DNA of 64,000 nt. Source: Janthinobacterium lividum (GTDB taxonomy: Bacteria > Pseudomonadota > Gammaproteobacteria > Burkholderiales > Burkholderiaceae_D). The notes under the pieces are model-generated. The model saw nothing but the letters and a program-made list of their open reading frames with translations. It did not search any database and was not told the origin of the DNA. The position numbers and the translations under genes are program-made. Numbering within the stretch: position 1 is the first letter of the stretch; every line of letters begins with the position of its first letter. The stretch is taken from NCBI RefSeq assembly GCF_034424625.1, contig NZ_CP139976.1, positions 2,356,001 through 2,420,000 of the forward strand. Reading direction: 5' to 3'. Of this stretch, positions 14,539 to 62,588 are shown in pieces.

Positions 14539-14615
14539 TGGTTGCGGGGACAGGATTTGAACCTGTGACCTTCGGGTTATGAGCCCGACGAGCTGCCAGA
14601 CTGCTCCACCCCGCA
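14539..14615 (-). tRNA. Initiator tRNA-fMet (CAU), copy 1
   Basis: 77-nt cloverleaf with encoded CCA. Anticodon CAU lies in GGGCTCATAACCC, giving the three G-C pairs of the anticodon stem that mark bacterial initiators, and the D-arm starts GTGGAGCAG as in E. coli tRNA-fMet. The first base is T and base 72 is A, so position 1-72 is a potential U-A pair rather than the usual C-A mismatch. An identical copy lies 738 bp away on the same strand. Confidence 0.95.
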
Positions 14616-15276: not shown

Positions 15277-15353
15277 TGGTTGCGGGGACAGGATTTGAAC
15301 CTGTGACCTTCGGGTTATGAGCCCGACGAGCTGCCAGACTGCTCCACCCCGCA
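15277..15353 (-). tRNA. Initiator tRNA-fMet (CAU), copy 2
   Basis: Identical in its 77 nt to the copy at 14539-14615, including encoded CCA, the GGG/CCC anticodon stem and the T1/A72 pair. The flanks are also similar, so the two arose by duplication of a roughly 155-bp unit. Confidence 0.95.
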
Positions 15354-46714: not shown

Positions 46715-46821
46715 TGTTGGCAGGTCAGTTCCTGCGGGATTGGAAGCTCCCCCCATCGGGCTAGCTTCCCCCCGTCGGGTCTGTCCTCAGTTTCACGGCA
46801 TTTGCAGTGAGGAAGATTTAC
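46715..46821. other. Gap after clpB before the repeat element
   Basis: No gene is supported. The stretch holds a 7-bp inverted repeat (GGAAGCT at 46742-46748 with AGCTTCC at 46763-46769) and two copies of CCCCCCRTCGGG. It may be part of the clpB 3' untranslated region. Confidence 0.4.
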
Positions 46822-46941
46822 GACGTCTAACAAAACCGTAGCGAGCGGCAGTGATTTGTGGCTGAGAAGCGCAACCGTACTTTAGTACGGTGAGCATCGC
46901 AGGCCGCAAAGCGCAACGCGCAGTAGGTTTTGATAGACGTC
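46822..46941 (+). repeat. Structured dispersed repeat, copy A (120 bp)
   Basis: An imperfect palindrome. Its ends pair as GACGTCTA(ac)AAAACC with GGTTTT(ga)TAGACGTC; inside are the stem TTTGTGGC/GCCGCAAA and the hairpin ACCGTAC-TTTA-GTACGGT (46874-46891). The same design occurs at 61548-61667 (plus) and 52425-52528 (minus). There is no open frame and no coding role is seen. Confidence 0.85.
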
Positions 46942-46949
46942 CTCAGGCA

Positions 46950-47029: not shown

Positions 47030-48145
47030 ATGGCAAACACATGGCAAGCAGGGCGGCGAATTGGAGTGGGATTGACCTTGGCGGCAGCCGTGCTGGCATT
47101 GCCTGCGCACGCCCAGGAAGAAAAAGTCCTGAACATCTATAACTGGTCGGACTATATCGGCGACGATACGATCAAGAATTTTGAGAAGGAAACGGGCATC
47201 AAGGTACGCTACGACGTTTTCGACAATAACGAAATCCTCAATGCGAAACTGGTGGCGGGCAAGTCCGGCTACGACATCGTCGTGCCGACGGCCCAGTGGG
47301 CGCGCCTGCAGATCGATGCGGGCTTGCTGCGCAAGCTCGACAAGAGCAAGCTGACGAACCTGGGCAACCTGGACCCGAACCTGCAGGCCAAGCTGTCGAA
47401 GATCGACCCGAACAACGATTACCTGGTCGACTGGCTGTGGGGCTACACGACGGTGGGCATCAACGTCAACAAGGTCAAGGCCGCGCTGGGCGGCATGCCC
47501 CTGCCGGACAACGCCTGGGACCTGATCTTCGACCCGAAATACGCGGCGAAGCTGAAATCCTGCGGCGTGTCCTTCCTCGACTCGCCGTCGGAAGTGCTGC
47601 CGGCCGCCCTGCAATACCTAGGCAAGCCCGCCTATTCGAAAGCGGCCGCCGACTATCAGGAAGCGGGCAAGGTGCTGCAGGCCATCCGCCCCTACGTTAC
47701 CCTGTTCAGCTCGTCTGGCTACATCAATGACATGGCCAACGGCTCCGTCTGCGTGGCGCTGGGCTGGTCGGGCGACATCAATATCGCGCGTCAGCGCGCC
47801 ATCGATGCGAAGAACGGCAATGTGATCCAGGTGCTGGTGCCGAAGACGGCCGCCCTGATGTTCGACACCATGGCCATCCCGGCCGACGCGCCCCATCCGA
47901 ACAATGCCCACCTGTTCATCAACTACATTTTGCGCCCGCAAGTGCATGCCAGCCTGAGCAACAAGGTGTTTTACGCGAATCCGAATCCGGCCAGCATCAA
48001 GTATGTACGCAAGGACATCGGTGAAAACAAGGCCATCTTCCTGTCGGACGCCGACAAGCAGCGCATGGCCGCACCGGAAGCGACTACGGCCGATATCCGC
48101 CGCTTGATGACGCGTATCTATACAAAGTTCAAGACGGGAGTTTAA
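47030..48145 (+). CDS. Periplasmic polyamine-binding protein (PotF/SpuD-like)
   Basis: 371-aa substrate-binding protein of a polyamine ABC transporter. Signal peptide to about residue 28 (LTLAAAVLALPAHAQ). Family motifs include LNIYNWSDYIGDDTIKNFEKETGIKVRYDVFDNNEILNAKL, GYDIVVPTAQW, WLWGYTTVGIN and ALGWSGDINIA. The permease and ATPase genes are not adjacent, so it is an orphan binding protein. ATG 47030 is preceded by CGGAGG. Confidence 0.93.
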   Translation: MANTWQAGRRIGVGLTLAAAVLALPAHAQEEKVLNIYNWSDYIGDDTIKNFEKETGIKVRYDVFDNNEILNAKLVAGKSGYDIVVPTAQWARLQIDAGLLRKLDKSKLTNLGNLDPNLQAKLSKIDPNNDYLVDWLWGYTTVGINVNKVKAALGGMPLPDNAWDLIFDPKYAAKLKSCGVSFLDSPSEVLPAALQYLGKPAYSKAAADYQEAGKVLQAIRPYVTLFSSSGYINDMANGSVCVALGWSGDINIARQRAIDAKNGNVIQVLVPKTAALMFDTMAIPADAPHPNNAHLFINYILRPQVHASLSNKVFYANPNPASIKYVRKDIGENKAIFLSDADKQRMAAPEATTADIRRLMTRIYTKFKTGV

Positions 48146-51376: not shown

Positions 51377-52426
51377 ATGCAAATGAAGCAAATGTTCAAA
51401 TTTATCGTCGTGGGTGCTTCGGCAGCGATGGCATTTTCTTCCGCTTCCGTCATGGCGGCAGATATGACAGGTGCTGGCGCAACCTTCCCGTACCCGATCT
51501 ACGCCAAATGGGCTGAGACGTACAAAGCTAACACGGGCAACGGCCTGAACTACCAGTCCGTCGGTTCCGGCGCTGGCATCAAGCAAATCAAGGCCAAGAC
51601 TGTTGAATTCGGCGCCTCGGACATGCCTTTGAAGGCAGAAGAGCTGGAAGAAGCGGGCTTGATGCAGTTCCCGGCCATCATGGGCGGCGTGGTCACCATC
51701 GTCAACCTGGACGGTGTGACCCCAGGCCAGCTGAAAATGACGGGTAAAGTCGTTGGCGACATCTACCTGGGCAAGATCACCAAGTGGAGCGCTCCTGAAA
51801 TCGCCGCGCTGAACAGTGGCGTCAAGCTGCCGGACACGGAAATCACCGTGGTGCACCGCGCCGACGGTTCGGGCACCTCGTTCCTGTTCACCGACTTCCT
51901 GTCGAAAACCAACCCGGAATTCAAATCGAAAATCGGCGCTGGCTCGGCTGTGAAATGGGCCGTGGGCGTGGGCGGCAAGGGTAACGAAGGCGTCGCCGCC
52001 AACGTACAGCGTATCAAGGGTTCGATCGGCTACGTCGAGTGGGCTTACGCCAAGAAAAACAAGATGTCGCACACCCAGCTGCAAAACAAGGATGGCAACT
52101 TCCTGCAACCTGACGACGAAAACTTCAAGGCAGCAGCCGCTTCGGCACCTTGGACGCAAACCCCAGGCTTCGGCGTGGTCCTGACCGACCAGGCTGGCAA
52201 GAACAGCTGGCCTATCACCGGCGTGTCGTTCATCCTGATGCACAAAGTCCAGGCTGACGCAGGCAAGGCAAAAGAAGTCCTGAAATTCTTCGACTGGGCC
52301 TACAAGAACGGCGGCCCTGCTGCCGTCGAACTGGACTACGTGCCGATGCCTGCATCGGTCGTGAAACTGGTGCAAGAGTCGTGGAAAGCTAACCTGAAAG
52401 ATGCTTCCGGCAAGTCGATCTACTAA
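51377..52426 (+). CDS. pstS: Periplasmic phosphate-binding protein PstS
   Basis: 349-aa binding protein of the PstSCAB high-affinity phosphate transporter. Signal peptide to about residue 26 (VVGASAAMAFSSASVMAA). Phosphate-site motifs: MTGAGATFPYPIYAKW, SVGSGAGIKQI, FGASDMPL, VVHRADGSGTSFLFTDFL. It begins the pst-pho operon. Its stop codon lies within the dispersed repeat that separates it from pstC by 260 bp, and its codon use has fewer GC-ending codons than its neighbours, as often seen in highly expressed genes. Confidence 0.97.
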   Translation: MQMKQMFKFIVVGASAAMAFSSASVMAADMTGAGATFPYPIYAKWAETYKANTGNGLNYQSVGSGAGIKQIKAKTVEFGASDMPLKAEELEEAGLMQFPAIMGGVVTIVNLDGVTPGQLKMTGKVVGDIYLGKITKWSAPEIAALNSGVKLPDTEITVVHRADGSGTSFLFTDFLSKTNPEFKSKIGAGSAVKWAVGVGGKGNEGVAANVQRIKGSIGYVEWAYAKKNKMSHTQLQNKDGNFLQPDDENFKAAAASAPWTQTPGFGVVLTDQAGKNSWPITGVSFILMHKVQADAGKAKEVLKFFDWAYKNGGPAAVELDYVPMPASVVKLVQESWKANLKDASGKSIY

Positions 52427-52528
52427 TAAACCTACTGCGCGGCGCTATTTGCGGCCTGCGATGCTCACTGTGCTAAAGCACAGCTCCGCTTCTCAGCCAC
52501 AACTAGTTGCCGCTCGCTACGGTTTATT
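52425..52528 (-). repeat. Structured dispersed repeat, copy B (104 bp), between pstS and pstC
   Basis: On the minus strand it matches copies at 46822 and 61548: ends AATAAACC/GGTTTATT pair, then GTAGCGAGCGGC, GTTGTGGC, the hairpin CTGTGC-TTTA-GCACAG (plus strand 52468-52483) and GAGCATCGCAGGCCGCAAA. It overlaps the pstS stop codon. In the operon transcript its complement would fold the same way. Confidence 0.85.
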
Positions 52529-52576
52529 CAAGCAAGAATGTCCTTGCCCCCGCCAGCAGTACGGCGGGGCAGGGAG

Positions 52577-61454: not shown

Positions 61455-61547
61455 ATCTTTTGCTGTGCGGCTGCTTTTTGCGAAGGCGGAAACGGCGCAT
61501 ACTTTGTCGGACTGATCACAATCGATCTGAACTTACAAAGGAGGAAC

Positions 61548-61667
61548 GACGCCTAACAAAACCGTAGCGAGCGGCGATGATTTGTGGCTAAGAAGCGCAA
61601 CCGTGCTAGAGCACGGTGAGCATCGCAGGCCGCAAAGCGCGACGCGCAGTAGGTTTTGTTTGGCGTC
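61548..61667 (+). repeat. Structured dispersed repeat, copy C (120 bp), just before an epimerase gene
   Basis: Same length and layout as the copy at 46822. Ends GACGCCTA(ac)AAAACC and GGTTTTGTTTGGCGTC pair; the inner hairpin is ACCGTGC-TAGA-GCACGGT (61600-61617). Relative to the first copy the paired bases change together (GACGTC to GACGCC with GACGTC to GGCGTC; GTAC to GTGC with GTAC to GCAC). It ends 6 nt before the ATG at 61674, so it fills the mRNA leader. Confidence 0.85.
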
Positions 61668-61673
61668 CACGGC

Positions 61674-62588
61674 ATGAAAGTGTTTTTGACAGGCGCAGCG
61701 GGTTTTATCGGCAGTTCCATCGCGGCGGGCCTCGTGCGCGCCGGCCATCAGGTGACGGGCCTCGTGCGCAAACCCGAGCAGGTGGCCGAGCTGGCCAGCA
61801 TCGGCGTGCACGGTATCGTCGGCACCTTGAACGATCGCGCATTGCTCATCGAGCAGGCGAAGGCAGCCGATGCCGTCATCAATGCGGCCAGCAGCGACCA
61901 CCGCGCCGCCGTCGAAGCGATCCTCGAAGCGCTGGCCGGCACGAACAAAGTGTTCCTGCATACAAGCGGCTCGTCCATCGTGGGCGACGCGTCGGGCGGC
62001 GAGGGCACGGAACAGATCTATTACGAAGACAAGCTGCCGGCGCCGACGGCAGACAAGGCGGCCCGTGTCGCCATCGATGACCTGATATTGGCCAGCGCAA
62101 GCCAGGGCGTGCGCGCCAGCGTGTTGTGCAATACCCTGATCTACGGCCACGGCGCCTTGCCGCGCGACAGCGTGCAGTTGCCGCGCCTGCTGAAACAGGC
62201 GCGCAAGAGCGGCATCGTGCGTCACGTGGGGCCGGGCCGCAACATCTGGTCCAACGTGCATATCGACGATGTCGTCAGCCTGTATTTGCTGGCGCTGGAA
62301 AAGTCGCCGGCCGGCACGTTTTACTTCGTCGAGTCGGGCGAAGCAGCTTTCCATGACATGACGGCCGCCATCGCCGAGGCACTGGACCTGGGGCCCGCGC
62401 AGGATTGGCCGTTGCCCGAGGCGATAGCCGAATGGGGTTACGAGATGGCTTCCTACGGCCTTGGCTCCAACAGCCGCGTGCGCGGCGAGCGGGCGCGCAA
62501 GCTGCTGGGCTGGCAGCCGCAGGGCCCGTCCGTGCTGGCATGGATCGGGAACGACATGCTGCATCCGCCGCACGCCATCGCTGTTTGA
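61674..62588 (+). CDS. NAD(P)-dependent epimerase/dehydratase-family protein
   Basis: 304-aa extended short-chain dehydrogenase. The Rossmann motif is FLTGAAGFIGSSIAAGLVRAGH (residues 4-25). The usual catalytic Tyr-x-x-x-Lys is not obvious; an atypical SDR-type core with HTSGSSIVGD is seen instead. C-terminal substrate region includes NVHIDDVVSLYLLALEKSPAGTFYFVESGE. The ATG at 61674 is preceded by the repeat, with no clear ribosome site; the frame can be extended 6 codons upstream into the repeat. The substrate is unknown. Confidence 0.85.
   Translation: MKVFLTGAAGFIGSSIAAGLVRAGHQVTGLVRKPEQVAELASIGVHGIVGTLNDRALLIEQAKAADAVINAASSDHRAAVEAILEALAGTNKVFLHTSGSSIVGDASGGEGTEQIYYEDKLPAPTADKAARVAIDDLILASASQGVRASVLCNTLIYGHGALPRDSVQLPRLLKQARKSGIVRHVGPGRNIWSNVHIDDVVSLYLLALEKSPAGTFYFVESGEAAFHDMTAAIAEALDLGPAQDWPLPEAIAEWGYEMASYGLGSNSRVRGERARKLLGWQPQGPSVLAWIGNDMLHPPHAIAV

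Follow-up and report, generated by a model that had tools for sequence, protein, structure and literature searches.

A MITE-like hairpin family with strand-specific structure and a preference for stop codons in Janthinobacterium

Introduction

MITEPsy1 of Pseudomonas syringae was trapped while transposing and, according to the available text of its report, duplicates CTAG or YTAA and has ends like those of the IS5-family element ISPsy2 (PMC3189936). The YPAL/RU-2 and ERIC elements of enterobacteria are intergenic mobile hairpins of 127-168 bp with TA duplications (PMC2759123). In P. fluorescens SBW25, the R0 and R2 repeats (89 and 110 bp) have inverted repeats that are those of resident insertion sequences, and the intergenic repeats of this strain are described as biased to tail-to-tail gene pairs (PMC2718517).

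The hairpin family that we describe here, from Janthinobacterium lividum, can be compared with each of these systems. It resembles MITEPsy1 in being short and non-coding with terminal inverted repeats, and elements similar to ours have duplications like those of MITEPsy1 (PMC3189936). MITEPsy1 is, however, 100 nt long and, in the description with which we compared it (rather than its full sequence), comes without a covarying fold or a stop-codon preference (PMC3189936). YPAL/RU-2 and ERIC are likewise intergenic mobile hairpins of similar size, but their duplications are TA (PMC2759123; ERIC was compared by description alone). R0 and R2, compared by description and not by sequence, differ in that their inverted repeats flank a loop-forming core (PMC2718517). 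REP/REPIN sequences are also dispersed hairpins with GTAG, which the available text describes as recognized in single-stranded form, but their units measure 20-40 bp (PMC3733652), against ~126 bp in our family, where GTAG is internal. They also differ in their association with RAYT transposases, which we did not meet in this family.

High-copy hairpin MITEs adjoin many genes, and their clustering at stop codons and the preservation of their folds are seldom testable. Here, one genus combines strand-specific covariation with sites that are filled, empty, or decayed across dozens of species, and another genome has a resident element of the IS5 family with ends matching those of a similar hairpin. 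Thus, target choice, transposase, and the role of the fold each become testable.

Results

The window, that is, the whole stretch of 64,000 nucleotides that was analyzed, contains three copies of the element (Table 1). The first-pass annotation had claimed three copies with shared sequence blocks and helix variants, and each was recovered at its claimed position with those blocks and variants. A search for GAGCATCGCAGGCCGCAAA that allowed up to three mismatches gave three matches, all of them exact, where 0.09 were expected. On both strands, every copy folds better than its dinucleotide shuffles (z -4.5 to -7.7); one of 200 shuffles folds as well as the top strand of copy 2, and none of 200 does so in the other five tests of copy and strand. 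Copies 1 and 3 represent the minority type, placed 5' of a gene (for copy 1, the reading frame that starts at 47030), while copy 2 is of the majority type, its 3' end overlapping the TAA stop of the convergent frame.

Table 1. Positions of the hairpin copies and adjoining features in the window
Feature	Position	Strand	Remarks
Copy 1	46819..46944	+	Covariance-model ends; stem ends 46822-46941; flanked by two + strand genes
GAGCATCGCAGGCCGCAAA block of copy 1	46892..46910	+	Includes part of the conserved GA/GCA internal loops
Reading frame, 349 aa	51377..52426	+	Stop codon abutted by copy 2
Copy 2	52416..52539	-	Covariance-model ends; short outer stem AATAAACC/GGTTTATT
Copy 3	61545..61670	+	Covariance-model ends; AGGAGG (61539-61544) on 5' side, ATG at 61674 of next gene on 3' side

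Copy 3 puts 129 nt between AGGAGG and the ATG that follows (window 61525-61700). With the hairpin closed, this gap shrinks to about 9 unpaired nt, compared with 7 nt at the empty site of a relative (G018), and the downstream gene may thus be translated across the closed hairpin. In the predicted fold, the AGGAGG itself lies within a weak local hairpin.

The same annotation had made its reading depend on further copies in the genome being recovered with a covariance model. A model built from 31 copies finds at least 83 strong ones (~58 bits or more), all on the 6.32-Mb contig, along with shorter or weaker remnants; the count is a lower bound because 150 of 4820 candidates were scored. The element is an imperfect hairpin of 126 nt with paired ends and the outer stem sequence RACGCCTGACAAAACC. 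Its core, from AAACC to GGTTT, measures exactly 98 nt in every one of the first 31 aligned copies. Among the 75 of the 83 copies whose flanks were read, 54 have the exact 126-position span and eight carry an insert of 13-14 nt. Judged from the hairpin and its placement between genes, the element has no coding capacity. It thus has features by which bacterial MITEs are recognized (70-300 bp, non-coding, terminal inverted repeats, many dispersed copies), including insertion relative to empty orthologous sites, found at 25 of 25 sites.

The annotation would also have been refuted by a known mobile element with the same ends, a point addressed by database searches: at gathering scores, Rfam matched two tRNAs only in the whole window and none of the hairpin copies, and the element had no BLAST match in plasmid and phage collections (which may leave out records near this genome). 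Furthermore, no description of the family was found in the literature library searched with the terms used. Our verdict is that the family is new and MITE-like, with a structure specific to one strand and a preference for stop codons. The two tRNAs are tRNA-Met genes of equal score on the same strand, 0.7 kb apart (window 14539-14615 and 15277-15353).

The family is widespread within the genus. With 57 candidates scored per genome, 33 of 36 same-genus genomes have matches, from one to at least 57 each; the covariance-model survey found none in the other three, namely G027 and two genomes that are 82-83% complete (G014 and G034). In other families, 5 of 24 genomes have a match, including two single, weak matches that may be due to chance (E 6e-4 in G048, 4e-4 in G051). 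A core-pattern scan of named genomes returned at least 120 stretches, with Janthinobacterium, Massilia, Telluria, Herbaspirillum sp. SJZ107, Undibacterium, Collimonas, Pseudoduganella, Ralstonia sp. A12, and Chitinimonas sp. BJB300 (G056, placed by NCBI in Neisseriales) among the matches listed.

Copies of the element are mobile. When 25 sites were compared across nine relatives (160 loci, classed by alignment score), the element was present at 20, partial at 5, and absent at 135. Each of the 25 sites is empty in at least one relative, and 12 are filled in at least one. The site of copy 2 is occupied in the genome of the window and in G007 but empty in the 18 further relatives read, while that of copy 3 is empty in all four relatives read (G018, G009, G013, and G003). 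Small remnants persist at some loci scored as empty (L309, at site L043; site L051 in G010 and G017), and the outer stem is the main part kept in remnants (L194 and L322). At some sites, the outer stem agrees between related species but the inner subfamily differs (L042, and L041 in part), which indicates gene conversion or re-insertion.

We find that the element tends to adjoin stop codons, mostly in one orientation. Orientation was taken from the folding strand, and genes were called from open frames and codon-position composition without annotation; a few calls are doubtful, and L043 was called differently in another run. The right-hand gene is convergent in 59 of 75 copies, and in 52 of these 59 its stop codon falls between -17 and +7 nt of the 3' model end, a range chosen after inspection of the data. 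Left-hand convergent stops are scattered, with 5 of 38 inside the same range. Within 6 nt of the model end, the counts are 43 of 59 on the right and 3 of 38 on the left, the 43 comprising 16 TGA, 15 TAA, and 12 TAG. Computed with minimum intergenic lengths, uniform placement predicts 21.3 of 59 (sd 2.4), and placement limited to CTNA/TNAG predicts 34.4 (sd 2.8). Thus, adjacency to stop codons exceeds what motif and survival predict, and it is bound to orientation in this genome. At the empty sites compared by eye (among them L033, L035, L038, L040, and L059), the stop codon is in the same place, so the element is not its source, although L046 and L047 may be exceptions.

The preference extends beyond the genus, with a weaker one-sidedness elsewhere. 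In the named scan, 80 of the stretches (at least 120) were searched with the model, giving 84 strong matches, of which 76 could be scored and 8 lay at locus edges. Convergent stops within 6 nt number 15 of 29 on the right and 6 of 28 on the left for the 61 copies from other genera, compared with 5 of 5 and 2 of 9 for the 15 Janthinobacterium copies.

Paired changes, which the first-pass annotation had read as a sign of selection on a fold, persist in a larger alignment and support constraint on a folded strand. The gap-free alignment holds 69 copies of exactly 126 nt (66 distinct), 50 from this genome's 54 exact-length copies and 19 from other species. Changes on both sides occur in 33 of 41 base pairs, compared with 17.2 in shuffles, and none of 500 shuffles reaches 33. 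Of all cells, 95.0% are paired, whereas shuffles give 85.2% and slid partners 28-45%, and the covariation score is 0.337, against 0.151 in shuffles (0 of 500 as high) and 0.05-0.07 with slid partners. Kinship among copies inflates the shuffle test; the slid-partner control retains that kinship. Within the GA/GCA motifs, several bases of the internal loops do not vary. L082 and L083, a seemingly orthologous pair in two low-copy species, have outer stems set apart by several paired changes. L083 also has, at ~1440-1480 of the reverse complement, a second outer stem in truncated form immediately 5' of its single strong copy, which precedes a gene resembling a sulfate-binding protein gene.

The fold is preserved on one strand. 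The alignment contains 175 G·T cells and 27 A·C cells, a 6.5-fold excess of G·T, and among pairs whose commonest form is Watson-Crick the counts are 86 and 27. Since a G·T in one strand is an A·C in its reverse complement, the strand under constraint is the one that carries GAGCATCGC; the top strand is the strand that folds. In most copies this is the antisense strand of the adjoining gene. The loops show no excess of C>T over G>A (4 of 345 and 22 of 828), so that C-to-T damage to an exposed strand was rejected as the source of the G·T excess.

Similar elements in other genomes vary in how closely they relate to the Janthinobacterium type. Those of genome G055 align with it better than all 300 shuffles. 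The Janthinobacterium model scores G055 elements at up to 46 bits, a copy in G059 (L086) at 58, and one Chitinimonas copy (L084) at 68. It gives the bulk of the G056 copies 26-40 bits. Homology of this bulk to the Janthinobacterium type is not established, because with this model the reverse complement of a true copy can score 44 bits and because 61 of 300 shuffles equal the direct alignment. Copies on Pseudomonas and Halomonas plasmids are 74-81% alike to the Chitinimonas type; these and the Chitinimonas bulk have the layout of the Janthinobacterium type, to which their homology is likewise not established. The P. veronii plasmid copy combines G055-like ends with a Chitinimonas-like core, and ends and cores therefore seem to have been exchanged between types. 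YPAL elements are said to lie near stop codons; similarity to YPAL (RU-2) was rejected, its score of 19 being matched or exceeded by 39 of 300 shuffles, as was similarity of the P. veronii copy to RU-3, whose score 19 of 300 shuffles reached.

Those similar elements that seem to have moved lately have short target duplications. Read by eye, the G056 loci, where elements were found by their ends, have a CTAA or CTTA duplication in 10 of 11 cases (3 bp if the outer C is counted with the repeat); six of eight distinct G055 elements have TTAG or CTAA, with two cases of one mismatch; and the single P. veronii plasmid copy has TTAA. Two G055 loci (L503 and L516) hold longer versions of 206 nt, which have an additional inner stretch, ends of the same type, and flanking CTAA duplications. 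In Janthinobacterium, CTNA stands at the right junction of 22 of 54 copies, compared with 4 of 54 in a control window. The permutation test for a duplication there gives p 0.09 for 4-mers and 0.13 for 3-mers, and none of the scanned offsets is convincing (best p 0.007 before correction for 99 offsets). The Janthinobacterium copies may be older, or their mechanism may differ.

Genome G055 also carries two insertion sequences of 1.32 kb with the ends CAGGCCGTTGAAAAA and TTTTTCAGCGGCCTG. Their left end equals that of most G055 hairpins over 15 nt, and their right ends lie 0-2 nt from those of the hairpins in most copies. A 270-aa fragment of the encoded protein matches the NCBIfam IS5 transposase at 251 bits (cut-off 140), with further matches to Pfam DDE_Tnp_1 and DUF772. 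The copy that was read has a broken reading frame. Of the two insertion sequences, one has a duplication with one mismatch (TTAA/CTAA), and the other has none. Short of a whole-genome search, no insertion sequence with the ends of the Janthinobacterium copies, and no transposase for them, was found.

Discussion

In its behavior the family is like a MITE: its members are short, have paired ends, seem to be moved in trans, and rest where harm is small. The explanation that we judge best, and hold with moderate confidence, is that each copy would be a non-autonomous mobile element (MITE) of ~126 bp, forming one long imperfect hairpin and resting at stop codons. A transposase would move it in trans, most likely one of the IS5 family because of the similar elements elsewhere; a YTAR/CTWA target is likewise suggested by elements in other genomes only. 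Most of the places where the element settles would coincide with stop codons, which would leave the host gene its reading frame and stop. In the Janthinobacterium genome it lies mostly in one orientation, its 3' end meeting the stop codon of a convergent gene. The top strand would need the hairpin, as single-stranded DNA or RNA, during amplification or for a function of the inner core. We know of no need for a single-strand fold in DDE cut-and-paste, which thus leaves the strand bias unexplained. Also counting against this account are the excess of stop-codon adjacency over motif and survival, the lack of a significant duplication in the Janthinobacterium copies, the broken frame and poor duplications of the G055 insertion sequences, the weaker one-sidedness in other genera, and the minority type of two of the three copies in the window.

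A more specific account, which we consider unlikely, is that the hairpin seeks the ends of genes, inserting in one orientation behind any of the three stop codons and depending on its top strand, the antisense strand of the gene, to fold as single-stranded DNA or RNA. If true, transposition would be coupled to translation termination or to transcription ends, and hairpins would have a route by which to arrive 3' of open reading frames.

We are just as doubtful of a REP/REPIN-like identity, in which the copies would be single-strand hairpins mobilized by a Y1 tyrosine transposase (RAYT or TIR-associated), which would recognize GTAG and the mispaired bases of the folded strand. One strand does fold preferentially, with GTAG at an inner loop rather than at the end, and all 37 same-genus genomes, that of the window included (two matches), have a match to PF01797. 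RAYT is described as cutting single-stranded REP at GTAG, and GTAG REPs as giving flanking genes TAG stops (PMC3733652). However, the 21 same-genus PF01797 loci that were examined (the two of this genome and 19 others, out of a larger number found) have no copy within 1.5 kb, and G027 has four matches without any element copy found. Nor was a PF01797 match found in G055 or G056, both rich in similar elements (G056 is a draft of 370 contigs). RAYT is thus disfavored as the mobilizer. The first-pass reading holds for the constraint on a folded strand and for the likeness of layout to ERIC-type elements, but a RAYT-like transposase, for which it proposed a search, is not supported. The best PF01797 match of this genome (L031, 1501-1830) has an in-frame TGA.

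The copies could instead be cis-acting RNA elements at mRNA 3' ends, serving decay control or termination and selected site by site, which we think quite improbable. Such a role would suit the placement immediately 3' of stop codons and the 12 of 25 sites that are also filled in at least one relative, and MITE folding in bacteria is described as stabilizing or destabilizing mRNA (PMC3733652). Against it are the turnover of sites, with the element absent from 135 of 160 orthologous loci, and the preservation of the fold on the antisense strand of the abutted gene. Moreover, the left gene is directed away from the element in 33 of 59 copies, which leaves the folding strand there with no obvious transcript.

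It is decidedly improbable that the paired changes arose without selection, through template switching within a cruciform (quasipalindrome correction). Imperfect palindromes are prone to this process, and deletion remnants at several sites show that the hairpin is unstable. Yet the internal mismatches have stayed uncorrected, with A47, G53, A55, G74, A75, and A78 invariant in all 69 copies, and correction should erase G·T as readily as A·C, contrary to the excess of G·T. An integron attC-like identity deserves almost no credence: attC sites do lie 3' of stop codons and recombine as a hairpin formed by the gene's antisense strand, but the outer stem here is one continuous helix, unlike the R-spacer-L plan of attC, with the boxes RYYYAAC and GTTRRRY in 6 and 4 of 69 copies and both together in only one.

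Some stop-adjacent sites that lack the element (L124, L118, L319, and L321) hold another inverted repeat, GGGGTCNGACC...GGTCNGACCCC or GGGGTCGTACCC, which is possibly the REP of the resident PF01797 genes.
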